A stretch of 28,132 nucleotides of DNA from a virus. This document shows, piece after piece, positions 931 to 28,132 of the stretch (position 1 is its first letter; each line of letters begins with the position of its first letter). The stretch lies in IMG/VR virus record IMGVR_UViG_3300022074_000287, positions 1 through 28,132 of that record; one strand, given 5' to 3'. Position numbers and translations under genes: made by a program. The notes below the pieces were generated by a model that was given only the letters and a program-made list of their open reading frames with translations, ran no database searches and had not been told where the DNA came from.

Positions 931-3312
931 ATGCATAAATTAGAAAAGCTCATATTAGAATCATACGTATCGCTACTCAACGAAATGGATGGCGGACTGC
1001 TATTCGATTACTTTAATAATAGAGGATACGACATAACTGAACGTAGCTCAGATGGCGGTAAACCTGGATTTGAAGGGTATATGGTCAGTAAAGGTGAAAG
1101 TAGATCTCCTCAAGCAGTAATATTTCAACATAATAAAGATACTGACGAATTTACAATCAGTAGAATGAGCGGTTATAGAATTGATCAAAAAGATGCTATT
1201 GAAGCAGGAATGAGACAAGCAGGTCGTTCAAGTGTTGCTGGTATGGATTCATATATGACAGATGGAAACTATACACCAGTAAGTATTTCAACTGAAGGTT
1301 TAAAAGATATAGTTGACCATGTTATGACTGGTTTAGATAGAGAAGCTGAAGCACAGCGTGACTTTTATGCTAGAAGAGGACCTGTATCTGGTACTATAGA
1401 TGAAGATGATGAAAGTTTTGATTTAGAAAAAGAATTTGAAGATAATCCTAAATTAACTAAATTTAAAGATCTTCCTGCAGATATGCAAAAAAAGTTTTCT
1501 AAAGAAATAAAAGTATTTGGAAAAAATGCACCTGGAGATCCTAATAGAGATTACGTAGACGCTGATTACGAAACATACTACTTTACTACAAGTTACAATA
1601 AAGAAACAGGTTCAGTAGGACATAGACTAGTTAGACTTCCTTCTTATTCTAAACTTTATAATTCATTCGTTAAAATAATCAAAGATATAAGAACTTTAAT
1701 GGGTGTTGATGCAGTTAAGAACGATGCTGCAGCAAAAGAAATATTTGAAAATATCAAAACTTTATTTAGACAACTTCAAAGATATTTAAGAACTAATCAT
1801 CCCAAGCAGTATGATCTTATGAAAATGAGAAGAATGGCTGAAGGATTAAAAAAAGCAAAAACTATATTAGAAAAATTAGATTATAACGATCCTGTTATGA
1901 TTAAATCTAGAGTTGCAAAGATGAGAGCTGATGATTTAAAAAAATTAGATGCATATAAAAAATCTCCTGAAGGTAAAGCTGCTGCAAGAGCACAAGCTAG
2001 TGCAGAAAGAAAAGAAGAAAAAGCAAGAGAAATAGTTCGTAAGTTAAAGATCAAGAGAGCTCAAGTAGAAAGAGAAATGGAAAACGATCCAGATATCGAA
2101 CCACAAGGAGGACCTGTAGCTGATATGTATGGTGATCAGTTAAATAAGATTGATAATGCTATTGAAAAAGCAGCATCTGTATATAACAGACCTATGGATT
2201 ATGATACCGCAGTAGGTAAAGTTGACGAAGTAAAAGTTGGAGATATACTTACTAAAGACGGCAAAAAAGGCAAAGTAGTCAAAGTAATGGACGATATGGC
2301 TAACGTTGATTTTGGTAATGGAGATGTTTATGGAATTACTTTCCGTAGAATAAAAGGAAAAGAAATAGTTAACGAAGAAGAAGGACACTTAGTTACCTTT
2401 GGATACGATTTAGATGCTATTCAAGATGTAGTTGATCATTTACAGTCTAAGTATAAAGAAGGTCAAGATTTTGTACTCCACATAGGTAGAGGAGATGACT
2501 TACCTAACGCAATAACTTTAAAAAATCCTGCATTAGAAAAAGATTACGATTTAAATGATATGCTAAATGCAGCACAAAGCGATCAAGATAGATACGATGC
2601 TTACACCGACTACGATCAACGTAGGAGAGAAGAAGATGATTACTACGAAGATCCTGACTATTATAAAGAAAGTAAACTTAGTTTAGCAGAAAGTTTATTA
2701 GATGAATTAAAAGAAGAAGAAGAACCAGAACCAGAAGAAGAAGGAGATGATGAAGCTCCTAAAGATACTGTTTTAGAAGATGCTACTGATCAAATTTTAT
2801 CTAAGTTTCCTACATTAAAAGCAGCTATTATAAAATTACAGACAGAAGACTTTAAAGAGTTTGTAGATAAAATAGATTGGATATCTCCAAGACCTACTGA
2901 GTTTAGAATCAATCTAAAGAACGGTCAAGACTATATTATGAAATGGACCGGTAATGGATTCGAAGCTCAAATTATGGGTAAAAGATTCTACATAAATAAA
3001 ATTAACGATTATCAACAAGCGTTAGATAAATTAGCTATACTATATAAAGAAGGCCCGATGGGCGGTGCTGGCGAAGGAGAACCTGCTGATACTGACACAG
3101 GAGGTTCTGCCGGAGGCGGTGGAGGAGATTTTCCTGGAGATGATGCTGGAGGTGGCGGAGGCGGCTTAGGAGATGATGATGCCGGTGGTGGACTAGGAGA
3201 TGATACCGGAGGTGGTGGATTAGGAGATGATGCTGGTGGAGATGCAGGAGGAGCTGATTTAACAGGTGAACCAGTCGATTTCGAGGAACCAGCTGAAGAC
3301 CCAGCAGCATAA
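931..3312 (+). CDS. Large modular protein with Gly/Asp-rich tail, putative head-associated protein
   Basis: This 793-residue protein is not recognised as a named family. The first 18 residues are an amphipathic helix with ILE and LNE, matching the [LIV]-x-E pattern cut by T4-type prohead proteases. Residues about 290-390 are Lys/Arg-rich and helical. Residues about 430-478 (VGDILTKDGKKGKVVKVMDD and following) look like an SH3/KOW-type beta barrel. A further compact domain spans about 481-550, then an acidic linker, then a domain at about 655-705 with NLKNGQDYIMKWTGNGFEAQ. From about 707 the sequence is almost only Gly, Asp, Ala and Glu. The ATG lies 1 base after the previous stop and has no Shine-Dalgarno. 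Multi-domain beads with a disordered tail and a protease-like N-terminus suggest a packaged or core protein, but that is inference; the gene call itself is secure. Confidence 0.85.
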   Translation: MHKLEKLILESYVSLLNEMDGGLLFDYFNNRGYDITERSSDGGKPGFEGYMVSKGESRSPQAVIFQHNKDTDEFTISRMSGYRIDQKDAIEAGMRQAGRSSVAGMDSYMTDGNYTPVSISTEGLKDIVDHVMTGLDREAEAQRDFYARRGPVSGTIDEDDESFDLEKEFEDNPKLTKFKDLPADMQKKFSKEIKVFGKNAPGDPNRDYVDADYETYYFTTSYNKETGSVGHRLVRLPSYSKLYNSFVKIIKDIRTLMGVDAVKNDAAAKEIFENIKTLFRQLQRYLRTNHPKQYDLMKMRRMAEGLKKAKTILEKLDYNDPVMIKSRVAKMRADDLKKLDAYKKSPEGKAAARAQASAERKEEKAREIVRKLKIKRAQVEREMENDPDIEPQGGPVADMYGDQLNKIDNAIEKAASVYNRPMDYDTAVGKVDEVKVGDILTKDGKKGKVVKVMDDMANVDFGNGDVYGITFRRIKGKEIVNEEEGHLVTFGYDLDAIQDVVDHLQSKYKEGQDFVLHIGRGDDLPNAITLKNPALEKDYDLNDMLNAAQSDQDRYDAYTDYDQRRREEDDYYEDPDYYKESKLSLAESLLDELKEEEEPEPEEEGDDEAPKDTVLEDATDQILSKFPTLKAAIIKLQTEDFKEFVDKIDWISPRPTEFRINLKNGQDYIMKWTGNGFEAQIMGKRFYINKINDYQQALDKLAILYKEGPMGGAGEGEPADTDTGGSAGGGGGDFPGDDAGGGGGGLGDDDAGGGLGDDTGGGGLGDDAGGDAGGADLTGEPVDFEEPAEDPAA

Positions 3313-3321
3313 TTTAACGTT

Positions 3322-4569
3322 ATGAATCTTATAGATAAAGTCATATTAGAATGGTCGTTTAGAACCAAGAAAGGATATCCTGATATCAGTAATAAAGAGG
3401 ATATAAACATATTCGAATCCTTGTTTGGTTATAATCCTTTAGTAGCTGAATTAGTAAAATTAGAATACGATGTACTTACCCCTGCAGCTAAAAAATTAGC
3501 TGAAAAAATAATAGAAGAGTTTGAAATAACAAAAGATCAAATAAAACCAGCCTCAAAAACACATATAGTAATTTATACTGATGATAGACCAAGTTTATTA
3601 AGTAGTTTTGAAAACTCTGGTAACTATGGACCTAATTTATTAAATAAAAAAGGTAAGTTTAAAGTAGACGGTATAAGTATTACCTTAAAACCAACAGGAG
3701 TAAAAGCAGGAGAATTTTTTGAACTTAAACCTCAACAATTAGGATTAACTTTAGATAAAAAGATTAGTCTTCAAACTTTACAAAGTGAATTAATTAACGG
3801 TATAAAAAATAATAAAGTATTAAATGATATACAGAGAAAAGCTCTTCTTTTAGCTATTACCGGTAAAGGATCTTTATCTGCTGAAGAAAAAGAGCAGTTA
3901 CCTAGAGGGTTTTTTAACGAAGTAAATAAAAATTTCGGAGAACCTCACGGTGCTCTGTTATACGGATTACAGATAGGATGCGATTCAGTAGAATTTCCAG
4001 GAGCTGGTAATTATAGGTTATTAGACTATATACTATATAAAGGAGAAGATAGGGTACAAGTAAGCGCTAAATCTGGATCTTCAGTCGGTAATACAGTAAA
4101 ATATATTGACGTCATAAAATTAGTAGATTTGTTAGACGGAGAAGTTTCCGATAAAATAAGAAACTTTACTAATATAATTAATAATAATTCAGTTTATGAA
4201 GGTGCTTTTAAAGCTATAGAGTTATTTGGAAGTAATACTTTAAAAAACCAAGTAAAAGAATATAAAAAAATATATCCACATTTTCCTAAACTAGGTAAAA
4301 AACCTGAAGATGAACAATCTCATAGAGATAGAATTATAATAGAAAAAGCGTTTGTAAAAGAAATAAATAACGATCCTGATTTAAACTTTAACGATATATT
4401 TAATAATTACGTTGAAGTAAAATATGTTAAATACTTTTTAAATCCTGGTAGCTTACAGGGCGAAGTTAAAGTTATAGAATCAGGTAATTTTAAAGTTAGT
4501 CATTTATCTAAAAATAGCCCTAACCATGATTCTGATAAATTAGGATTAAAGGTTAGTAAAAGTAAATAG
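3322..4569 (+). CDS. Unknown protein with possible PD-(D/E)XK nuclease-like signature
   Basis: The protein has 415 residues. The N-terminus MNLIDKVILEW resembles the start of the preceding protein and contains an ILE protease-type site. Residues about 198-252 include NEVNKNFGEPHGALLYG, then a Cys-Asp pair, then GNYRLLDYILYK and VQVSAKSG. The spacing of Glu207, Asp235 and a Ser-Ala-Lys250 triplet resembles an alpha-beta-beta PD-(D/E)XK nuclease core in which the usual Glu before Lys is replaced. The rest is mixed alpha/beta and Lys-rich, with no membrane segment. It ends 2 bases before the terminase ATG, so the two are probably co-expressed. It could be a packaging-associated nuclease, a virion cargo enzyme, or a structural protein with a dead nuclease fold. 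The function is unproven. Confidence 0.8.
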   Translation: MNLIDKVILEWSFRTKKGYPDISNKEDINIFESLFGYNPLVAELVKLEYDVLTPAAKKLAEKIIEEFEITKDQIKPASKTHIVIYTDDRPSLLSSFENSGNYGPNLLNKKGKFKVDGISITLKPTGVKAGEFFELKPQQLGLTLDKKISLQTLQSELINGIKNNKVLNDIQRKALLLAITGKGSLSAEEKEQLPRGFFNEVNKNFGEPHGALLYGLQIGCDSVEFPGAGNYRLLDYILYKGEDRVQVSAKSGSSVGNTVKYIDVIKLVDLLDGEVSDKIRNFTNIINNNSVYEGAFKAIELFGSNTLKNQVKEYKKIYPHFPKLGKKPEDEQSHRDRIIIEKAFVKEINNDPDLNFNDIFNNYVEVKYVKYFLNPGSLQGEVKVIESGNFKVSHLSKNSPNHDSDKLGLKVSKSK

Positions 4570-4571
4570 TT

Positions 4572-6143
4572 ATGTCACAGAATATCAAAAAGATAATCGC
4601 ACAAGAGTACATCAAGTGCGCTAAAGATCCGGCGTACTTTATGAAGAAGTATTGCTATATTCAGCATCCTACTCGTGGTAGAATACTATTTAGCCTTTAT
4701 CCTTTTCAATCTAAAGTATTACATTTATTTAGAGATAATCAATATATTATTACTTTAAAATCAAGACAGTTAGGTATATCAACTTTATCTGCTGCATATG
4801 CTTTGTGGATGATGTTATTTCATAAAGATAAAAACGTATTAGCTCTGGCAACTACTCAAGCAACTGCTCGTAACTTAGTTTCTAAAACTATGTTTATGTA
4901 TGATCAGCTACCTAAATGGTTAAGATTACCAGCTCTAGAAAAAAATAAATTATCTTTAAGACTTAAAAACGGTTCTAAAATTACAGCAAAATCTTCTAAT
5001 ACTGATGCAGCTAGATCCGAAGCAGTATCTTTATTACTTATAGATGAGGCAGCATTTATAGATAATATTGACGAAACATTTACAGCAGCACAACAAACAT
5101 TAGCTACCGGAGGTCAATGTATGGCTTTATCAACTCCTAATGGTATTGGTAACTGGTTTCATCAAACTTGGGAAAAAGCTGAAAGTGGTGAAAATTCATT
5201 TTTACCTATTAAACTACCTTGGACAGTACATCCTGAAAGAAATGAAGAATGGAGAGAACAACAAGACTCTGATTTAGGACCTAGAATGGCGGGACAAGAA
5301 TGTGATTGTGATTTCTTAGCTTCCGGTGATACTGTATTTGAACCTGATGATATGTTATTTTATGAACAAACATATTTAAAGGAACCTTTAGAAAAAAGGG
5401 GAGTTGATACTAATTTATGGATTTGGGAAGGTGTAGACTATACTAAATCTTATATGGTAGTAGCTGACGTTGCGAGAGGTGATTCTGCTGATTATTCCGC
5501 ATTTCATATATTTGATATAGAATCTTGCACTCAAGTAGGAGAATATAAAGGTAAATTATCACCTAAAGATTTTGGTAACGTTCTAGTAGGTATAGCTACT
5601 GAATATAATCAAGCGTTATTAGTAGTTGAAAACGCTAATATAGGATGGGCTACTATAGAACAGATAATGGAAAGACAGTATAGCAATTTATATTACAGTT
5701 CTACTTCTCAAATGGAAACTGTAGAATCATATATGTCAAAATATGAAAGAGATAAACTTGTACCCGGGTTTACTATGTCAGTTAGAACTAGACCTCTAGT
5801 AGTTGCTAAAATGATAGAATATATTAGAGAAAGAGGAGTTACTATACAATCGAAGAGGTTAATAGGAGAAATGAGAGTTTTTGTATGGAAAAATGGTAAA
5901 CCTCAAGCACAAGTTAATTATAATGATGATTTACTAATATCCTGTGCTACAGCATTATACGTAAGAGATACTGCTTTAAGATTAAGACAACAAGGTATGG
6001 ACTTAGCTAGAGCACAACTTTCATCATTCCAGAATTTAAATGCTAAAAACAAAGGAGTAATGAAATCAGTTGGAAATCAGCAAAATAATCCTTATCTTAT
6101 AGATAATGGCTACGGGCAAGAAGATATATCTTGGTTGTTATAA
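4572..6143 (+). CDS. 17: Terminase large subunit (gp17-like)
   Basis: This is the ATP-driven DNA-packaging motor and headful nuclease, which docks on the portal. The 523 residues show the expected order. A helical N-terminus contains YPFQSKVL, the adenine-binding region. A Walker A variant SRQLGIST lies at 64-71, typical of T4-type terminases. Walker B LLLIDEAA is at 154-161, and the coupling motif STPNG at 187-191. The C-terminal RNase H-like nuclease has acidic residues in VVADVARGD (Asp299), LVVENANIG (Glu353) and NYNDDLLIS (Asp452/453). The T4 protein is somewhat longer (about 610 residues), so this one is compact. The start follows the previous gene by 2 bases and no Shine-Dalgarno is present. 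No small terminase gene is recognised next to it; the upstream genes are far too large to be gp16. Confidence 0.97.
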   Translation: MSQNIKKIIAQEYIKCAKDPAYFMKKYCYIQHPTRGRILFSLYPFQSKVLHLFRDNQYIITLKSRQLGISTLSAAYALWMMLFHKDKNVLALATTQATARNLVSKTMFMYDQLPKWLRLPALEKNKLSLRLKNGSKITAKSSNTDAARSEAVSLLLIDEAAFIDNIDETFTAAQQTLATGGQCMALSTPNGIGNWFHQTWEKAESGENSFLPIKLPWTVHPERNEEWREQQDSDLGPRMAGQECDCDFLASGDTVFEPDDMLFYEQTYLKEPLEKRGVDTNLWIWEGVDYTKSYMVVADVARGDSADYSAFHIFDIESCTQVGEYKGKLSPKDFGNVLVGIATEYNQALLVVENANIGWATIEQIMERQYSNLYYSSTSQMETVESYMSKYERDKLVPGFTMSVRTRPLVVAKMIEYIRERGVTIQSKRLIGEMRVFVWKNGKPQAQVNYNDDLLISCATALYVRDTALRLRQQGMDLARAQLSSFQNLNAKNKGVMKSVGNQQNNPYLIDNGYGQEDISWLL

Positions 6144-6185: not shown

Positions 6186-8075
6186 ATGGCCGATAAATCA
6201 CTATTTGGAAGACTGCAAAGACTTTTTTCTTCGGATGTAATTATAAGAAACGTAGGAGGTACCGAACTTAAGGTAGCCGACATAAATCGTATTCAATCTA
6301 CTGGTAACTTTGAAACTAATGCACTTATCGATAGGTTTTCAAGATTACACATATATAATAATAAAAACTTATTTAACCCCACTCTTAATTATCAAACATT
6401 AAGAATACAGCTATATTCTGATTATGAGGCAATGGATACTGATCCTATTATAGCTTCTGCGTTAGATATATTAGCTGACGAAGCTACTTTGAAAAACGAT
6501 TTAGGAGAAGTACTATCAGTTAAATCTTCAGACGAAAATTTACAAAGAGTTTTATACAATTTATTTTATGATGTATTAAATATTGAATTTAATTTATGGT
6601 CGTGGACAAGAGGTATGCTTAAGTATGGAGATTACTTCTTAAAGTTAGAAATAGCTGAAAAGTTTGGTGTCTATAATATTCTTCCATACACAGTCTATAA
6701 TATGTCTAGACACGAAGGTGCCAATGCAGAGAAACCTTCTGAAGTGCAGTTTACTATAGATCCAGCAGGTCTGGCATCAACAGCAGATCCAAATTATATA
6801 CCTAAAAGAGATTCAAACGTAATTAAACTAGATAATTACGAAGTAGCTCATTTTAGATTACTTTCTGATCATGCTTATTTACCTTACGGTAGGTCCTATA
6901 TCGAACCGGCTAGAAAAATATTTAAACAATTAACGTTAATGGAAGATGCGATGTTAATTCATCGTATTATGAGAGCTCCTGAAAAGAGAACTTTCTTTGT
7001 TAATGTTGGTTCTATTCCTCCTGCAGAAGTTGATCAGTTTATGCAAAAGACTATCAACACTATGAAAAAGACTCCTTATGTTGATCCTAAAACTGGTCAA
7101 TATAACTTGAAGTTTAATATGCAGAACATGATGGAGGATTTCTATGTTCCTGTAAGAGGAGGAGATGCTTCTACTAGAATCGAAACTACTAAAGGTTTAG
7201 ATTACGACGGTACTAATGATATTCAATATCTACAAGCTAAGATGTTTGCTGCTCTTAAGATTCCAAAAGCATATTTCGGGTACGAAGGAGACTTACAAGG
7301 TAAAGCGACATTAGCAGCAGAAGATATAAGATTTGCAAGAACTGTAGAAAGAATACAAAAGATCTTAGAATCAGAGTTAACTAAAATTGCTTTGGTCCAT
7401 TTATATACTCAAGGATTCACTGGAGAGAGTTTAACTAATTTTGAAATTAAACTTACCAATCCTTCTGTTATATACGAACAAGAGAAAGTAGCTCTACTAA
7501 AAGAAAAAGTTGATCTAGCTAATCAAATGAAAGATTCTAAATTATTCTCCTCAGATTACATTTATGAGAACATATTTGATATGTCAGAAGATACTTATAA
7601 TGAAATGAGAGATTTAGTTAGAGAAGATGGTAAGAGAGCCTTCAGACATGCTCAAATAGAAGCTGAAGGTAATGATCCTGCTAAATCAGGTAGATCATAC
7701 GGTACTCCACACGATTTAGCTTCAATGTATGGTAGGAGAGCAACAGCTACTGAAAAAGGAGCTGGATTTGGTGATGTGCCATCAGGTTATAATGAAGTAG
7801 GACCTGAAGGCGGTAGACCAAGAGATAAAATGTCGGTGTACGGTACTAACGACGATCCTATGGGTGGAAGAGATAGATTAGGTGTCCATGGAATGCATGG
7901 CGGATTCCCGTCTGATAATGATAATGTCATGGAAACTAATACTACAAAAGCAGAAACAGTTTATCAACAAATTAAAGATTCTTTTGAAGAAAAGAAAGAA
8001 TTAATATTTGAAGATAAAAAAGAAGATGATTCTAAACTACTTGATGAAACACAATTAAGAGATTTAGAGGACTAA
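6186..8075 (+). CDS. 20: Portal protein (gp20-like)
   Basis: The portal is the dodecameric ring at the special vertex; it nucleates the prohead and is the docking site for terminase and neck. The 629-residue protein has the conserved T4-type N-terminal block around YSDYEAMDTDPIIASALDIL (residues 77-96), the central MLIHRIMRAPEKRTFFVNVG stretch, and the AYFGYEGDLQGKATLAAEDI block at about 360-380 with the following long helix (crown/stem region). The C-terminal 130 residues are low complexity (Gly, Asp, Arg, then Glu/Lys) and longer than needed for the core fold, an extension worth noting. The first ATG after the putative promoter is used. Length is close to that of T4 gp20 (about 524) plus this tail. 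Confidence 0.95.
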   Translation: MADKSLFGRLQRLFSSDVIIRNVGGTELKVADINRIQSTGNFETNALIDRFSRLHIYNNKNLFNPTLNYQTLRIQLYSDYEAMDTDPIIASALDILADEATLKNDLGEVLSVKSSDENLQRVLYNLFYDVLNIEFNLWSWTRGMLKYGDYFLKLEIAEKFGVYNILPYTVYNMSRHEGANAEKPSEVQFTIDPAGLASTADPNYIPKRDSNVIKLDNYEVAHFRLLSDHAYLPYGRSYIEPARKIFKQLTLMEDAMLIHRIMRAPEKRTFFVNVGSIPPAEVDQFMQKTINTMKKTPYVDPKTGQYNLKFNMQNMMEDFYVPVRGGDASTRIETTKGLDYDGTNDIQYLQAKMFAALKIPKAYFGYEGDLQGKATLAAEDIRFARTVERIQKILESELTKIALVHLYTQGFTGESLTNFEIKLTNPSVIYEQEKVALLKEKVDLANQMKDSKLFSSDYIYENIFDMSEDTYNEMRDLVREDGKRAFRHAQIEAEGNDPAKSGRSYGTPHDLASMYGRRATATEKGAGFGDVPSGYNEVGPEGGRPRDKMSVYGTNDDPMGGRDRLGVHGMHGGFPSDNDNVMETNTTKAETVYQQIKDSFEEKKELIFEDKKEDDSKLLDETQLRDLED

Positions 8076-12302: not shown

Positions 12303-12881
12303 ATGGCACAATTATTAGTAGAAGTATCAACATTTAGACCTATAATCACCGAGTCAAAAACTAAACCTGGTGTATTTGAAGTTGAAGGTGTTATGCAAAG
12401 AGCAACAGCTAAGAATCAAAACGGTAGAGTTTATTCTAAAGCTATACTAGAAAGAGAAACTAAAAAATATATGGATGAATTCGTCAAAAACGGAAACGCT
12501 TACGGTGAATTAGATCATCCTGAATCTCCTGTTGTATCTTTAAAAAATGCTTCTCATATTGTAAAAGACCTTTGGTGGAATGGTAATGACTTAATGGGTA
12601 AAGTTGAGTTATTAAATACACCAGCAGGTAATATTGTAAAAGAAATAATCAAAGCAGGACATACTATCGGTATCAGTTCTAGAGGTACCGGATCAGTTCA
12701 ACAAACTAACGAAGGTAATTTAGAAGTACAACCAGACTTTGAATTAGTATGTTGGGACTTTGTCTCTAATCCATCTACTCACGGTGCATTTATGAACCCT
12801 ATATCGTTAAACGAAGCTAAAAAGAAAGTTTCTAAATATATGAATTTAGATTCTATTATTAACGATATATTAAGAGCATAG
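12303..12881 (+). CDS. 21: Prohead core protease (gp21-like)
   Basis: This serine protease acts inside the prohead, cleaving scaffold, core and capsid proteins after [LI]-x-E type sites and then itself, making room for DNA. The 192-residue sequence has the hallmark GELDHP with His72, a central strand region NGNDLMGKVELL, and ISSRG with Ser125/126 as candidate nucleophile. WDFVSNPS follows, where Asp152 may be the third member of the triad. The size is close to T4 gp21 (about 212). The N-terminus also contains LVE and ITE, potential self-processing sites. It is flanked by the membrane protein gene and a hydrophobic protein gene, and its stop overlaps the GTG of the latter (TAGTG). Confidence 0.95.
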   Translation: MAQLLVEVSTFRPIITESKTKPGVFEVEGVMQRATAKNQNGRVYSKAILERETKKYMDEFVKNGNAYGELDHPESPVVSLKNASHIVKDLWWNGNDLMGKVELLNTPAGNIVKEIIKAGHTIGISSRGTGSVQQTNEGNLEVQPDFELVCWDFVSNPSTHGAFMNPISLNEAKKKVSKYMNLDSIINDILRA

Positions 12882-13503: not shown

Positions 13504-14583
13504 ATGGCAAATAAAGATTTATTCAAGCAAGCTATTGCTGAAGCTAAATCTGTGAGAGAAGCCGCTATCGCTAACGCTAAAGAAGCTTTAGAAGAGTCAT
13601 TAACACCTCACCTAAAGGACATGTTAGCTGCTAAACTTCAAGAAATGGACAACGAACATATTGAAGAAGAAGTAGTAAACGAAGCTGAAGTAGAAGAAAC
13701 TATCGACGAAGCTCCTGCAAAGGAGAAAGAGATGGAGGAAGCTATGAAAGACGACGACATGGACGAAGGTATGAAGGATGATGACATGGACGAAGCACAC
13801 CACGATGACGATATGGAAGAAGCTCACGGAGACGAAGACGAAGCAATGGAAGAAGCTGAGGATGACTCAGAAGAATCTGAGGACGAAGCCGAAGGCGACG
13901 AAGAAGCTGAAGAAGCCGAGGAAGAAGATGTAGAGGTAAAAGACATGGAAGTCGAAGACCTTAAAGATCTTATCCGCGACATCATTGCTCAAGAAATGGG
14001 TGACGGTGGCGAAGAAGAAATAGACGATCCTGATATGGATGCAGGTGCAGAAATGGAGCCAGCGATGGACGGCATGGACGCAGGTGCAGAAGAGGAAGAA
14101 ATCGATCTAGACGAATTGTTAGCCGAGTTAGAAGCAGCTACTAACGAGGAAGTAACCGAAGAAGAAGTAACAGAAGAAGTTGAAGAAGAAATTGTTGCTG
14201 AAGAAAAAGTTAAGGAAGAAGATAATTCTGAATTAAACGAAGCTTTAGAAACAATCCAAAATTTACAATCTCAACTATCAGAAGTTAATCTTCTTAACGC
14301 AAAATTAATGTATGTTAACAAAGTATTCAAAGCTAATAACCTTAGTGAGAGTCAAAAAGTTAATATCATCGCTGCTTTCGATAAAGCAGAAACTGTTAAA
14401 GAAGTAAAATTAGTATTCGAAACAGTATCTGATAGCGTAGTAAATAAAAAAGCTACTAAAGTTAACGAAAGTAAATTAGGTATGGCTTCTAAGCCAACTG
14501 GAACTACTGCTACTAAACCAGAAGTAATTTCAGAAGTATCTGATGCGGTTAGAAGAATGCAAAAATTAGCTGGTATTATTTAA
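13504..14583 (+). CDS. 22: Prohead core scaffold protein (gp22-like)
   Basis: This is the main internal scaffold on which the capsid protein assembles; in T4 it is destroyed by gp21 during maturation. The 359 residues begin with a helix containing IAE at 11-13, an ideal protease site. Residues about 55-240 are extremely acidic, with imperfect repeats of DDDMDE and MDAGAE. The C-terminal third has a coiled coil and NLLNAKLMYVNKVFKANNL, a segment typical of T4-type scaffold, and ends in SDAVRRMQKLAGII. The RMQKLAGI tail is the family's hallmark, likely contacting the capsid protein. Codon use in the acidic part is richer in GAC/GAA than that of neighbours. It stands directly before the capsid gene, as in T4. 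Confidence 0.93.
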   Translation: MANKDLFKQAIAEAKSVREAAIANAKEALEESLTPHLKDMLAAKLQEMDNEHIEEEVVNEAEVEETIDEAPAKEKEMEEAMKDDDMDEGMKDDDMDEAHHDDDMEEAHGDEDEAMEEAEDDSEESEDEAEGDEEAEEAEEEDVEVKDMEVEDLKDLIRDIIAQEMGDGGEEEIDDPDMDAGAEMEPAMDGMDAGAEEEEIDLDELLAELEAATNEEVTEEEVTEEVEEEIVAEEKVKEEDNSELNEALETIQNLQSQLSEVNLLNAKLMYVNKVFKANNLSESQKVNIIAAFDKAETVKEVKLVFETVSDSVVNKKATKVNESKLGMASKPTGTTATKPEVISEVSDAVRRMQKLAGII

Positions 14584-14614: not shown

Positions 14615-16180
14615 ATGGAAATTAACAACCTTTTAGAAAGCGCAAACGGCTACAAAGCTTTAAAAGCTGATGCAGCACGTTTGGCTGAGAAATGGTCTGC
14701 TTCTGGATTGCTTGAAGGATTGGAAGGTAAAGAAAAAGACACTATGTCTATCATGCTAGAAAATCAAGCAAAGCAAATCGTAGCAGAGCAATCATCTACA
14801 GGGACAGGCGCTATTAGCGCTACAAATGCTGGAAATGAGCAATGGGCTGGTGTTGCCTTACCGTTGGTAAGAAAAGTATTCGCTCAAATCTCATCTAAAG
14901 ATTTTGTCTCTGTACAACCAATGAACTTGCCTTCAGGGCTAGTATTCTACTTAGATTTCAAATATGGCAATGCTGTAAGTGGAAAATCATCTGGTGGAAA
15001 TATGTACGGTAACGTATCTACAGCTGGAGACAAAATGACAATTGCTGATGGAGACGCTTCTGGCGGTCTTTATGGTGCAGGTCAGTTTGGATACTCTATC
15101 AAAGAGAAAACTTCAGGTAACCTAGCCTTTACTGGCGGTACTGTTGATGCATCTCACGTTAATTATAGCGGTGCAGATATAAGTGGAAAGAAAGTTTATT
15201 CTTTCACTCCTCCTTCTGATGCTGATTTAACAGGTGTTAGAGCATTTAGAACTTCTTTAGCTGGTGAGTTATCAGAATTCAACCAAGTTTTAGCTGACGG
15301 CAAGATTCAAGTCGTTGCTGATTCTGTTGCTAACGGTAACTTAACTTTAAAGTATCACATTGCTCCAGCTGATAATTCAAGAGGTGACTTTGAAGATTCT
15401 TCTGCACCATCTGCAGGAAATGTTTCTTCTTTAGTTATCCCAGAAATCAACGTAGAGTTAAAATCTGAAGCAGTTGTTGCTAAGACTAGAAAGTTAAAAG
15501 CACAATGGACTCCAGAATTTGCTCAAGATCTTAACGCATACCACAGCATCGACGCTGAGGCTGAGTTAACGTCTTTATTGAGTGAGTACATCTCTATGGA
15601 GATTGACCTAGAAATTTTAGATATGTTAATAGCAGACGCAGCAACTGAAGAGTTCTGGTCAGCTGAGAACAATAAAGTATGGAACGGATCTGCGTTCGTT
15701 ACTTCATCTGCAGATTTCTATAATACTCAAGGACAGTGGTTCCAGACTTTAGGAACTAAAATCCAAAAAGTATCTAACAAAATTCACCAGAAAACTTTAA
15801 GAGGTGGAGCAAACTTCCTAGTATGTTCTCCATCTGTAGCTACTATCCTAGAATCAATTCCAGGATATGCAGCTAATACTGACGGAGATCAGGCTGAATT
15901 TGCGATGGGTGTACAAAGAGTTGGTCAACTTAACAGTAGATTTAAAGTATACAAAAACCCTTATATGACTGAAAACAGAATCCTTATGGGCTTCAGAGGT
16001 GGACAGTTCTTAGAAAGTGGTGCTGTATATGCTCCATATGTACCGCTAATCATGACTCCATTAGTATACGATCCTGCTTCCTTCACTCCAAGAAAAGGAA
16101 TCATGACTAGATATGCTAAGAAGATGATTAGACCAGAATTCTACGGAAGAATTAATATAGCAGACTTAGCTACTGTATAA
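14615..16180 (+). CDS. 23: Major capsid protein (gp23-like)
   Basis: The 521-residue shell protein has the HK97-type fold of T4 gp23. The N-terminal propeptide contains TMSIMLENQAKQIVAEQ; cleavage after Glu58 (VAE) would parallel the known gp23 processing site and leave about 463 residues. Downstream are the conserved LVRKVFAQISSKDFVSVQPM (residues 84-103) and a variable insertion region at about 125-275. The strongly conserved blocks KTRKLKAQWTPEFAQDLNAY and SLLSEYISMEIDLEILDML follow at about 290-345, then a C-terminal P-domain-like end with PRKGIMTRYAKKMIRPEFYG. It lies 31 bases after scaffold without its own promoter motif, so it is probably co-transcribed with it. More C-ending codons than neighbours fit high expression. 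A strong terminator follows. Confidence 0.96.
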   Translation: MEINNLLESANGYKALKADAARLAEKWSASGLLEGLEGKEKDTMSIMLENQAKQIVAEQSSTGTGAISATNAGNEQWAGVALPLVRKVFAQISSKDFVSVQPMNLPSGLVFYLDFKYGNAVSGKSSGGNMYGNVSTAGDKMTIADGDASGGLYGAGQFGYSIKEKTSGNLAFTGGTVDASHVNYSGADISGKKVYSFTPPSDADLTGVRAFRTSLAGELSEFNQVLADGKIQVVADSVANGNLTLKYHIAPADNSRGDFEDSSAPSAGNVSSLVIPEINVELKSEAVVAKTRKLKAQWTPEFAQDLNAYHSIDAEAELTSLLSEYISMEIDLEILDMLIADAATEEFWSAENNKVWNGSAFVTSSADFYNTQGQWFQTLGTKIQKVSNKIHQKTLRGGANFLVCSPSVATILESIPGYAANTDGDQAEFAMGVQRVGQLNSRFKVYKNPYMTENRILMGFRGGQFLESGAVYAPYVPLIMTPLVYDPASFTPRKGIMTRYAKKMIRPEFYGRINIADLATV

Positions 16181-23744: not shown

Positions 23745-24752
23745 ATGGCAAATTGGAAAAAGATAATAGTTAGCGGATCTTCCGCGGTCTTAGGAGGAGT
23801 TAGTTTACCTTCTTTAACAACAAATAACCTTGTAAAAGTAGGAGGAAGTGGAGTACTTTCTGACTCAGGTATAACTATTAACGGTGGTACTTTAGCAATA
23901 GGAACTAACGTTATTACTTCTACCGGTGCTACTTCTATTCTTTCAGGTTCTTTTAGCGGTTCATTTCAAGGTGATGGATCTTTATTAACAGGAATAGCTA
24001 CAAGTCTAGATATTAGCGGTTCTAGTGGCAATACTTCAATAGATTTAAAGACTGAAGATTTTACAATTGCTGCAGGTAACGGTATTAGTACAGCGGCAAC
24101 ATCCAACACTATTACAGTTGCAGTTACTAATGGAGGTATTACAGGAACACAATTAAATGCTTCTGTTGCAGGTACTGGTTTATCAGGCGGTGCTGGTTCA
24201 GCATTATCAGTAGATTATGGTTCTTCAGCAGGTACGGCAGTACAAGGTGATACTACAATTACTATTAATGGTACTTCTGGTGAGATTGGAGTAACCGGAA
24301 CAGCTGCACAAGCATTAGGAGGAGGTCCTTCTTATACACTTACCTTACCAGATACTATTTCAGGTAACAGAACTTTCTCTAATAACGTTGTTATTACAGG
24401 TGATTTAACGGTTAATGGTTCTACCACTACAGTAAGCACTACTAATCTAGAAGTAGAGGATAAATTCTTATTCTTAAATGCAGGTTCAGGATCAGCTTCA
24501 CCAGTAGGAGAAGGTGGTATAATCGTTGAAGCAGGTACAGCAGATTCAGGTTCTGCATTCTATTATGATGGGAATAGTGCTAGATGGTCTTTAGCAGATG
24601 GAATTAAAAAAGATGCTACTTCAGTAACTCCTGAAGCATTTTCAGCAATAGTGGTAGATGTAGCAGGAGGACAATCAGATGCTGCAAAATATAAAAAGAA
24701 TGGTAATATAAAAGTTGATGGCTCTGGAGATATATTTATCTACGTAGAGTAA
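23745..24752 (+). CDS. Fibre-like protein with MxNWKKxIVSGS N-terminus
   Basis: The 335 residues are Gly/Ser/Thr-rich. The N-terminus MANWKKIIVSGSSAVL is nearly the same as that of the large fibre at 25048, suggesting a shared docking peptide. It is followed by SILSGSFSGSFQGDGSLLTG, a repeat type common in phage fibres, then beta repeats with ITGTQLNASVAG and SGEIGVTGTAAQAL. A conserved-looking block follows (FSNNVVITGDLTVNGSTTTV, then NLEVEDKFLFLNAGSG and GGIIVEAGTADSGSAF), and the protein ends with a short compact C-terminus. No enzyme domain is seen. It has its own putative promoter. It is probably a short tail fibre or an adaptor for a longer one. Confidence 0.75.
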   Translation: MANWKKIIVSGSSAVLGGVSLPSLTTNNLVKVGGSGVLSDSGITINGGTLAIGTNVITSTGATSILSGSFSGSFQGDGSLLTGIATSLDISGSSGNTSIDLKTEDFTIAAGNGISTAATSNTITVAVTNGGITGTQLNASVAGTGLSGGAGSALSVDYGSSAGTAVQGDTTITINGTSGEIGVTGTAAQALGGGPSYTLTLPDTISGNRTFSNNVVITGDLTVNGSTTTVSTTNLEVEDKFLFLNAGSGSASPVGEGGIIVEAGTADSGSAFYYDGNSARWSLADGIKKDATSVTPEAFSAIVVDVAGGQSDAAKYKKNGNIKVDGSGDIFIYVE

Positions 24753-25047: not shown

Positions 25048-28000
25048 ATGCCAAACTGGAAAAAACTGATAGTTAGCGGGTCAGACGCTACACTAAACTC
25101 TCTTAATGTAATAACGAGCATCTCAGGCTCAAGTATAAGCGGCAGCGGAACTGTATCCGGTATCACAGGTAGTTTTGGATCTACAGGAACACAGGGTTCT
25201 GTAATACTTACTGATACTGGTGCCGAATCTAGAGTAACAGCATTAAATAACCATTTATCATTAAGAACTCAAAGAGATGATGATGATATAAAATTTTACA
25301 CAGGTGATAGCACTTCTTTAAGAGTTACTCTCGAAGGAAATACAGGAAATGTTGGTATCGGAACAGCATCACCTGGAGCAAAATTAGATGTTCACGGTAG
25401 AGTAGACTTTGCAAACGATTTAAGATTAAGAGGAACTGATGCTGCAGCAGATCAAGGTGTAGTAAGATTCTTTGTTGACAGTAGTAATAAACTTTTTATA
25501 GATACTGCTAACGACGGTAGTAATAGATTTGTAATTGATAGCTCTGGTAATGTTGGGATTGGAACAACTTCACCTGCAGCAACCTTAGAAATAGCATCAG
25601 GATCGAGTGCAGCAGGTACAACTTTTAGAATAACAAATGCATTCGGAGAAAGTCCTAAAAAAATCGAATTTGTTTCAACATCTAATAATGCTTCTGGAAA
25701 CGTAATAGCTGATATATTCGGTTTTGGTAGAAGAACAACAGGAAATAATGGACCTTATTTAGCGTTTAGAGTATGGGATCAAGTTAATTCTTCTTTAGAC
25801 GAAGTAGCAAGATTTAGCACCTCAGGAAGTCTCGGTATTGGTGTAACTAATCCTACTGAAAAATTACAGGTAGACGGTAATATACATGCAAGCGGTTCCG
25901 GTAGTGAAATAATTACAGATCAGATATTTAGAGCAGCTCAAGGTACTTTGAGATTTAGAAAAGGTACCAATACTTGGGATGCAATGCGAATGTCTTCTAA
26001 TGGTAAATTAGAATTAGCAGCAGGCGGTGCTAATGACAGAGGTGAATTAGTATTAGTAGCAGATTATGGTGCTACACCTAGAGCAGGTGTTATACAATTT
26101 CAAAACGAATCTCAAGGTAGTTCTTTCTTATTTACCGATACAAATAAAAGATTAAGATTTCATACTTCTGACCCGGGAGAAAACGATTTAGCAGGAGCAA
26201 AAGTAATTTACGAAGGCTTCCCAGACGACTTTACTATTCAAGGTAGTATAATGCTAGATGATAATAGTGGAGATAGTCCGGCAATATCTTTTAGAAATGA
26301 AAGTGAAGTAAGATATAATGTAACTGCTACTAGCGGTGGCGATTTCCAAATTACTAGACAAGGTAATGGAGGTTCAGACTTTTTACTTGTTGGTGATTCT
26401 AGTAACCATACAGGTAGTTATATACAAGTAGGAAATAGTAACCAATTTGGTTATGATACTGTAGTAGCTAATAATATAACAGCAGGAGGAAATATAAAGA
26501 TAAGTACCGGTAATCATCTATTTTTTGACGGTACTGGTAATTCGACTTATATATCTGAAGATATAGCTGATAGATTAAGAATATTTGTAGGTGGATCAGA
26601 ATTTGCAAGATTCACAGAAGATACTTCTGATACTATTAGTTTTTTCCATGATACAACTTTTGGAGGTTCTATAACAATACCTGAATATATATTACATACT
26701 GGAGATGGGAATACTTATTTTGGATTTGGAACTGATGATGATTTTAGAGTTGGTGTAGGTGGTACTAAACGTCTTAATGTAACAACTGCGGGCGTAGAAA
26801 TTGCTGGTAATTTAACAGGTGTTACTGATGCAACTTTTGCAGGAGATATAACTACTGCAGGAAACATAATACTTTCCGGTGCTTCTAATGAAATAATTAA
26901 ATCTAATGGATCTATTAGGTTAAACATAGACTCAGATAATAATCAAACAGATAGAATATTTATAGTGTCTACAGGTGCTAACTCTGAATTATTTAGAGTT
27001 TCAGAAACAGGATACGTAACAGCTCAAAGCACTATTAAATCTCAAAACGGTATATTAGCTCTCGGTAACGATGTTACTATATTTAGAGATGGAGCAAATA
27101 TACTAAGAACCGATGATACTTTTCATGCTAATAATAGTATACATGTAGGAGGAGATGGAAAGATATATGATAGAGCTAATACAAGTAATTATATTGAATT
27201 AGCTGATACGATAAACATATCAACAGATACAAGCGTTACAGGAGATTTAACAGTTACTGGAACAATAACAGCACAAGAATTTAAAACAGAATTAGTTTCA
27301 GCATCAGTAGTATTTGAATCAGGTTCGACTATATTTGGTAATTCTTCTGATGATATACATTCTTTTTCTGGGTCATTAAGAGTATCAGGATCAGGAAATC
27401 ATTATTTCTCTGATGGTAACGTAGGTATTGGAACTACATCTCCTTCTAAAGCATTAGATGTTGTTGGTGGGTCAAGAGTAACAGGAACCTTTACTGTCGA
27501 AACGGGCAACAACCATATTAGATTAGTTGACACAGATCATTCGGGTAATTTCTCAGTAGGAGTTAATACAAATTTCCAGATTAGAGACGTAGCAAATAGT
27601 ACTACACCTTTTGCAGTCCAACAAAGTACTCCTGCTAATACTTTATTTCTCAAATCTGACGGTTATATCGGTATAGGCCATTCAAGTCCACAGACTAGAT
27701 TACATTTAAGTGGATCTTCAGCAGCAGCTGCAGGTATAAGACAATCTAGAGACGGAGTAAAAATATGGACTCAAGAAATAGATTCAAACGGTAAATTACA
27801 ATGGGCGTATAGATCTACCGAAGGAGGATCTGCAACACAACACTTTACACTAAATGATACAGGTCAAGCCATACTTCATAGCTACGGGTCAGGTAACCAT
27901 ACCGGTACATTAGCAAAATCATTAGGAGTTGATTCTTCTGGTAATATAATCGAATTTACAGGTGGTTCAGGAGGCGGAACAGTTTCTTCTATTACATCTG

Positions 28001-28132
28001 GTGCTGATAATAGAATAGCAATCTTTAATGGTACAGATTCTTTAGAAGGAGATGCTGATTTAGTATTTGATGGAAGCAAACTGGGGATAGGACTTTCTAG
28101 CCCGACTCATCATCTTACGGTAATTGGAGATG
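25048..28132 (+). CDS. Long fibre protein with VGIGT-type repeats, 3' partial
   Basis: The frame is open from ATG 25048 to the right edge (1,028 complete codons, no stop), so the gene continues beyond the window. The N-terminus MPNWKKLIVSGSDATL matches that of the short fibre upstream. The body is beta-rich with at least six copies of a 16-residue unit of the form [VIL]-G-I-G-x-x-[ST]-[SN]-P-x-x-x-L-x-[VIL]. A 40-residue block is shared with the large fibre-like gene at 20177. VGIGT units are typical of long trimeric fibres and are often followed at the C-terminus by an intramolecular chaperone (peptidase S74 type), which could lie past the edge. No enzyme motif is seen. It is likely a receptor-binding tail fibre. 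Confidence 0.85.
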   Translation, partial: MPNWKKLIVSGSDATLNSLNVITSISGSSISGSGTVSGITGSFGSTGTQGSVILTDTGAESRVTALNNHLSLRTQRDDDDIKFYTGDSTSLRVTLEGNTGNVGIGTASPGAKLDVHGRVDFANDLRLRGTDAAADQGVVRFFVDSSNKLFIDTANDGSNRFVIDSSGNVGIGTTSPAATLEIASGSSAAGTTFRITNAFGESPKKIEFVSTSNNASGNVIADIFGFGRRTTGNNGPYLAFRVWDQVNSSLDEVARFSTSGSLGIGVTNPTEKLQVDGNIHASGSGSEIITDQIFRAAQGTLRFRKGTNTWDAMRMSSNGKLELAAGGANDRGELVLVADYGATPRAGVIQFQNESQGSSFLFTDTNKRLRFHTSDPGENDLAGAKVIYEGFPDDFTIQGSIMLDDNSGDSPAISFRNESEVRYNVTATSGGDFQITRQGNGGSDFLLVGDSSNHTGSYIQVGNSNQFGYDTVVANNITAGGNIKISTGNHLFFDGTGNSTYISEDIADRLRIFVGGSEFARFTEDTSDTISFFHDTTFGGSITIPEYILHTGDGNTYFGFGTDDDFRVGVGGTKRLNVTTAGVEIAGNLTGVTDATFAGDITTAGNIILSGASNEIIKSNGSIRLNIDSDNNQTDRIFIVSTGANSELFRVSETGYVTAQSTIKSQNGILALGNDVTIFRDGANILRTDDTFHANNSIHVGGDGKIYDRANTSNYIELADTINISTDTSVTGDLTVTGTITAQEFKTELVSASVVFESGSTIFGNSSDDIHSFSGSLRVSGSGNHYFSDGNVGIGTTSPSKALDVVGGSRVTGTFTVETGNNHIRLVDTDHSGNFSVGVNTNFQIRDVANSTTPFAVQQSTPANTLFLKSDGYIGIGHSSPQTRLHLSGSSAAAAGIRQSRDGVKIWTQEIDSNGKLQWAYRSTEGGSATQHFTLNDTGQAILHSYGSGNHTGTLAKSLGVDSSGNIIEFTGGSGGGTVSSITSGADNRIAIFNGTDSLEGDADLVFDGSKLGIGLSSPTHHLTVIGD
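25351..28128 (+). repeat. Six dispersed VGIGT-type 16-residue repeats
   Basis: Copies of 48 bases lie at 25351-25398, 25552-25599, 25831-25878, 27421-27468, 27667-27714 and 28081-28128. Examples are VGIGTASPGAKLDVHG and LGIGVTNPTEKLQVDG. They cluster near both ends of the visible gene, leaving about 1.5 kb between the third and fourth copies without a clear unit. Confidence 0.85.
27259..27378 (+). repeat. 40-residue fibre module, copy 2
   Basis: This segment encodes 40 residues from GTITAQEFKTEL to HSFSGSL and aligns without gaps to 20426-20545 with 28 identical residues. Confidence 0.85.

Follow-up and report, generated by a model that had tools for sequence, protein, structure and literature searches.

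A conserved N-terminal leader with exchangeable nuclease-like domains in the head gene cluster of T4-like phages

In phage T4, several proteins of one genome carry a leader of 10–20 amino acids, and engineers have loaded nucleases artificially with a T4-type leader. Packaging and delivery of foreign nucleases by the T4 leader serve as a precedent for the locus described here. The first ten residues of the internal protein IPIII are enough for packaging, and the protease gp21 cuts after L/I-x-E (PMC9026906); longer propeptides are known in giant phages (PMC5694885). Virion delivery has been proposed for the toxic C-terminal domains of MuF proteins (PMC5576092). Targeting leaders, exchangeable effectors such as the MuF toxins (PMC5576092), and PD-(D/E)XK folds are all known already; a search of open-licence papers found no description, for lytic T4-like phages, of a natural slot that takes exchangeable nucleases and has a head leader of its own.

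Here, we analyze a whole 28,132-base virus record (the window), which carries the head cluster of a T4-like phage. An earlier note on this DNA had pointed to a protein beside the terminase with a capsid-targeting-like N-terminus and residues in a context resembling a degenerate PD-(D/E)XK core, which could be a nuclease packaged in the capsid and delivered with the DNA, or a packaging accessory. The explanation we favor, with a probability of roughly 0.55, is a packaged and probably injected nuclease occupying a polymorphic cargo slot of T4-like phages, in the manner of the T-even internal proteins. The data directly show that the leader is conserved, that close relatives have exchanged C-terminal domains, and that a nuclease signature with a predicted core is present.

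The leader gene and its head cluster

The leader-nuclease gene is a real gene that opens with an ATG and ends 2 nt upstream of the TerL ATG at 4572 (Table 1). Its product matched nothing in Pfam, PHROGs or PDB sequences, leaving it without a family, and a promoter and terminator scan around the gene gave nothing above chance. Elsewhere in the window, the ORF at 108–929 has matches over its C-terminal 70 residues to phrog_22379 and phrog_11470 (E ~1e-8), two domains of unknown function that belong to larger phage proteins. The repetitive ORF at 25048–28131, open at the window end and 1028 amino acids long so far, resembles tail-fibre or structural repeat proteins, and its start resembles 23745–24752 and immuto_215/218 (MxxWKKxxxSGS). 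These last belong to phage immuto, the only cultured relative, which infects Flavobacterium. Its immuto_203 (L211:25582–26823) is annotated 'DNA polymerase phi-like', yet lies in the scaffold position and has an N-terminus resembling that of the acidic scaffold-like protein of the window.

Table 1. Features of the head cluster in the window
Feature	Position	Strand	Basis
Leader-nuclease gene, 415 aa, type A cargo	3322..4569	+	ORF; 27 viral relatives
Conserved leader, residues 1–43, common to otherwise unrelated proteins	3322..3450	+	Profile alignment E=1.8e-14, leader searches, model
I-L-E10, candidate prohead-protease site (hydrophobic-x-Glu)	3343..3351	+	72/72 unique leaders; gp21 motif L/I-x-E in PMC9026906
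V-A-E43, second candidate prohead-protease site, flexible linker	3442..3450	+	68/72 leaders; pLDDT <50 at residues 36–45
Middle domain, about residues 46–125, common to type H cargo	3457..3696	+	hhalign A vs H E=8.5e-9; blastp links
Nuclease-like core, residues 195–270	3904..4131	+	AlphaFold2 secondary structure; invariance
Glu207 codon	3940..3942	+	Invariant 28/28
Asp235 codon	4024..4026	+	Invariant
Ser248-Ala249-Lys250 codons	4063..4071	+	Invariant
Terminase large subunit (TerL), conserved slot neighbour	4572..6143	+	Pfam PF03237, phrog_2; synteny
gp21-type prohead serine protease, candidate leader-cutting enzyme	12303..12881	+	Pfam PF03420 E=2.6e-35; phrog_207
793-aa Gly/Asp-rich protein, L/I-x-E N-terminus, left flank of slot, upstream	931..3312	+	ORF, synteny, N-terminal motif
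Portal-like protein	6186–8075		Synteny with annotated immuto genes
Scaffold-like acidic protein	13504–14583		Position and composition
Protein in major capsid protein position	14615–16180		Synteny with annotated immuto genes

At the equivalent place in immuto, immuto_192 has only its N-terminus in common with the window protein. A profile comparison aligns residues 1–43 exactly, with 42% identity (E=1.8e-14), and nothing beyond; since the leader alone is common to both, immuto_192 was rejected as a plain orthologue. The leader is modeled as two helices (residues 3–14 and 25–35) followed by a stretch, residues 36–45, with pLDDT below 50. Leader-only searches in two scans with overlapping sets retrieved 312 and 264 related stretches from environmental T4-like contigs, and a scan of 84,980 species genomes found no relatives, hence neither a host assignment nor a prophage. 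Nine records each carry a single copy of the leader, and the idea of a general multi-protein tag was rejected because these genomes hold no leader paralogues. A second leader-like N-terminus with an L-x-E site (NFxLRSFLTENKLTKNAQLLKE / NFDLKKFLVENKLTTNSKILKE) is common to the adjacent immuto_193 and immuto_194 (L001:9101–10401); the annotation of immuto_193 as a cob(I)alamin adenosyltransferase looks doubtful.

All 72 unique leaders contain hydrophobic-x-E-W/F at about residues 8–11, and 68 of them a hydrophobic-x-E ending at 39–45, disordered in the model, a count weakened by the acidic linkers that follow in several types. The N-terminal Ile-Leu-Glu that the earlier note likened to other head proteins is real: within the window, hydrophobic-x-Glu falls in the first ~20 residues of 9/9 head-core ORFs versus 1/10 others. 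The immuto head-core group (191 to 204 minus TerL, portal and one tiny ORF) has the motif, with E at residue 7–19, in 11/11 proteins versus 22/105 other genes (Fisher p=2.5e-7, for a post hoc grouping of adjacent, non-independent genes). As in a T4-type internal protein, candidate L/I-x-E sites (E10, E43) and a gp21-type protease gene are both present, and the leader precedes otherwise unrelated proteins, but across genomes, not within one. Conservation of the leader extends across 43 residues and takes in the additional site at residue 10, compared with a leader of 10–20 residues in T4. Residues 1–43 are probably a head-targeting leader. Support for the capsid-targeting-like N-terminus is indirect: otherwise unrelated proteins carry one leader, this leader has L/I/V-x-E sites, the cluster encodes a gp21-type protease, and the annotation of a cyanophage relative is that of a virion protein.

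Cargo types and their exchange

The leader-bearing set of 166 ORFs (some contigs were fetched twice) reduces to 108 unique complete proteins, which form 12 C-terminal clusters by BLAST. In an all-against-all profile comparison, most cargo types have no detectable homology to one another; the exceptions are the cores of types B and D and the middle domain of types A and H (hhalign E=8.5e-9, about residues 46–125). Searches of Pfam, PHROGs and PDB sequences place most of the other types in no family, while G and L match unknown-function PHROGs. Nearly all clusters bear a D...(E/S)xK nuclease signature. In the informative clusters, the invariant residues include E207/D235/S248/K250 in type A, E94/D119/S128/K130 in type C, E123/D142/E151/K153 in type D, E222/D246/E255/K257 in type E, E142/D194/S208/K210 in type H and D258/S297/K299 in type I. 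Type G has invariant E138/S224/K226, with D211 present in the reference, not strictly invariant; in types J, F, K and L, represented by one or near-identical sequences, the motif was identified by inspection only. Among the 31 type B proteins, no charged or polar residues of the C-terminal part other than E172/D195/E204/K206 are near-invariant, and column conservation is far higher in the leader (0.79) than in the cargo (0.39).

Phages with different cargoes can have TerL proteins that are 98–99.6% identical; in such swaps, DNA identity breaks off at codon 35–42 and returns at the stop codon. At the DNA level, L090 (type D) and L113 (type H) are 95.3% identical over 1.4 kb upstream through nt 103 of the gene, have no similarity over its remainder, and regain identity ~12 nt before the stop codon, at 89–95% into TerL. 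The pattern recurs in other different-type pairs, whose left breakpoints mostly fall between codons 35 and 50 and whose right breakpoints lie no more than ~12 nt from the stop codon. Because the breakpoints fall at the leader end and the stop codon, the unit of exchange is the cargo domain alone. No co-swapped immunity gene lies at the junction in the compared different-type pairs, and the return of identity within ~12 nt of the stop codon leaves no room for one. In most loci TerL follows the gene downstream, either next to it or no more than ~3 kb away, and in L122 and L132 it is ~5 kb off; none was detected in the fetched flanks of the divergent type B carriers (L119–L121, L123–L127, L129 and L133). 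These carriers are a marine phage group, one of which (L126:8001–9146) has its type B leader gene preceded by a 135-aa acidic structural-looking ORF (MTIEELNKIIQEELKAYLNEE).

The nuclease part is an exchangeable cassette behind a fixed leader. Such sharp replacement between conserved flanks in close relatives, together with the nuclease signatures of the cargoes, could also arise from homing-type selfish endonucleases, in which the cargo cuts the rival allele of a phage infecting the same cell and is copied across during repair, giving a sharp single-site exchange. We regard homing as very unlikely, since a fixed leader and one-per-genome occupancy are atypical of homing genes and the locus is never empty in the sampled set, which was gathered by leader search and is blind to empty loci. 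The roughly dozen swapped nuclease parts suggest a stock of enzymes that can replace one another and that travel to the host inside the virus head.

Residues and predicted fold of the nuclease-like core

Scanning 2.9 million viral contigs yielded 27 relatives, which together with the window protein make up the 28 first-pass sequences. The positions that the earlier note assigned to the core, Glu207, Asp235 and Ser-Ala-Lys250, are correct, and E207, D235, S248, A249 and K250 are invariant in 28/28 sequences. D235, S248, A249 and K250 show no substitutions across a 20-row set with identity down to 38%, in which conservation of E207 is 90% or higher. Two distant cyanophage homologues, S-SZBM1_142 and S-WAM1_164, retain the E, D and S-x-K positions as well; the first aligns by profile (E=9.6e-10) with F-S-E, L-V-D and S-V-K at the matching positions.

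An AlphaFold2 model of the window protein, built from 20 aligned sequences (mean pLDDT 83.5), predicts a helix (residues 195–217) that bears E207, three strands (222–224, 236–240 and 243–251) and a second helix (261–270). D235 immediately precedes or opens one strand, and K250 lies within the strand that follows. This helix-strand-strand-strand-helix order fits the PD-(D/E)XK core, with Ser at the acid position of the third motif. Judged from the order of the model elements, the predicted alpha-beta-beta-beta-alpha arrangement carries these residues as the family does; the acid...acid...(D/E)xK residues are present in type A, but Ser replaces Asp/Glu in the third motif, which reads E-x-K in types B, D and E.

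A Foldseek search of the window model against the PDB returned no significant match to a solved structure. The best plausible matches are several chains of Hjc resolvases, which are PD-(D/E)XK enzymes, with E of 1.5 or worse and TM of 0.31–0.37 by target length. Nine predicted viral structures match at E<1e-3, every one unnamed or uncharacterised, including S-PM2 Q5GQJ7 and Atu_ph07 A0A2L0UZH6, and the type B model, with a confidence of only 70, gave chance matches only. A nuclease-like core is thus supported by conservation and predicted topology, without a statistically firm fold match. For the degenerate PD-(D/E)XK core proposed in the earlier note, residue conservation and the predicted alpha-beta-beta order bear the proposal out, and the fold search gave significant matches to viral predicted models and to no solved PD-(D/E)XK member; conservation and the AlphaFold2 element order speak against both a missing core and unconserved residues.

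A nuclease fold might also persist in injected proteins that are not catalytic and that, for example, inhibit host restriction enzymes or act as decoys for them. The internal proteins of T-even phages, which have the leader alone in common, inhibit restriction after injection (PMC12373910), and the swapping pattern suits an arms race. We consider such a role quite unlikely for these cargoes: their conservation is highest at the catalytic-type residues, and type B cargoes have no other near-invariant charged or polar positions, a pattern that argues for catalysis.

A proposed packaged nuclease and described systems

The gene lies immediately before TerL in most loci, all long genomes tested have one copy of it, and nearly all its cargoes look like nucleases. 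It could therefore encode a DNA-processing nuclease of packaging, acting in branch resolution, end trimming or as a terminase helper. The leader would then dock it to the portal, core or motor, and unrelated nucleases would interchange because any serves. In T4, gp49 is such a packaging-related nuclease. This is the main rival, though we judge it rather unlikely, and it is weakened by the separate resolvase-like genes of immuto, which has a Holliday-junction-resolvase-like gene and another PD-(D/E)XK gene. Moreover, swaps between phages with near-identical terminases are fast for housekeeping, and the homologous domains of cyanophages lie away from the terminase, one of them being annotated as a virion protein.

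For the packaged and probably injected nuclease, we infer packaging, cleavage, injection, catalytic activity and targets as follows. Residues 1–43 would act as a propeptide that binds the prohead core and draws the protein into the head, where a gp21-type protease may cut the leader at L/I/V-x-E (E10 and/or E43). The released PD-(D/E)XK-type nuclease would stay in the head with the DNA, enter the host at infection and cut unprotected DNA, be it the host chromosome, plasmids, prophages or rival phages. The conserved flanks would recombine, replacing the nuclease while the leader and neighbouring terminase stay. The nuclease may target DNA that does not carry the phage's own modification; immuto carries 7-deazaguanine genes including DpdA. 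A search with Pfam PF01702 (TGT/DpdA) found nothing, even in immuto with its annotated DpdA, and is therefore the wrong probe. QueC, used in its place as a proxy for DNA self-protection, is present in 7/9 long leader-bearing records, so that with two lacking it 7-deazaguanine self-protection cannot be general. The diversity of cargoes without immunity genes suits an arms race against host inhibitors or rival phages.

Homologues of three cargo types occur in cyanophages: type A in S-SZBM1_142 and S-WAM1_164, type L in S-BM1_80, Syn1_159 (T4-GC 533), MED4-213_181 and S-SCSM1_90, and type G in Sf-CH11_152, S-CAM1_182 and S-RSM4_065. They occupy one locus, away from the terminase, where in most cases mazG immediately precedes them and the GC71 and cytidylyltransferase genes follow. 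Their N-termini are different and lack the 43-aa leader. In these cyanophages (L002, L213–L220), the locus forms a second exchangeable slot in which three unrelated nuclease-like families alternate at one position. S-SCSM1_90 is a virion protein by annotation; for phage S-SCSM1 as a whole, 45 virion proteins have been reported by mass spectrometry (PMC9602691).

Against the packaged nuclease stand the 43-aa length of the leader and its single occurrence per genome, along with the leaderless cyanophage homologues, the two records of nine that lack QueC and the absence of a significant fold match to a solved nuclease. More broadly, and with odds somewhat short of even, lytic T4-like phages may keep a polymorphic virion-effector locus, in which a dedicated head leader serves an open-ended set of packaged DNA-cutting enzymes. 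These would be exchanged in the manner of toxin tips, with no immunity genes, and the phage would tolerate them through protection of its own DNA, 7-deazaguanine genes being present in most long records; cyanophages would have a parallel locus. If true, this would suggest candidate functions for numerous orphan proteins of marine phages, those encoded at the cyanophage locus among them, and supply ready-made leader/cargo pairs; the cultured phage immuto on Flavobacterium sp. LMO8 makes the reading testable.

Compared with the cyanophage mazG-GC71 locus (S-SZBM1_142, Syn1_159/T4-GC 533, S-CAM1_182), the slot has homologous A, G and L cargoes that there alternate at one locus, but the cyanophage proteins lack the 43-aa leader, are not beside the terminase and have no annotated function. 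With PD-(D/E)XK nucleases such as Hjc resolvase and restriction enzymes, the cargoes share the E, D and (E/S)xK residues and the predicted element order; they differ in the Ser that replaces the third-motif acid in type A, and no solved member gives a significant sequence or structure match. The MuF polymorphic toxins of temperate phages (PMC5576092) likewise combine a packaging-module protein, a constant N-terminal part and exchangeable C-terminal domains. The slot shares the exchangeable domains behind a constant part, whereas an immunity gene linked to each domain was not found at the junctions of the compared different-type pairs; its phages are lytic and T4-like, and neither the window protein nor the other cargo types match a MuF domain in Pfam. 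Closest are the T-even internal proteins (IPI-III, Alt), which have a conserved leader with an L/I-x-E site before unrelated, fast-changing C-terminal parts, a gp21-type protease and a head-gene neighbourhood. Here, by contrast, the leader spans 43 amino acids, occurs in a single copy per genome and belongs to a gene beside the terminase. T-even IP1-3 are restriction enzyme inhibitors, whereas the cargoes here look like nucleases, and a natural slot with about a dozen nuclease types would, if true, extend the theme of injected inhibitors to offensive enzymes.
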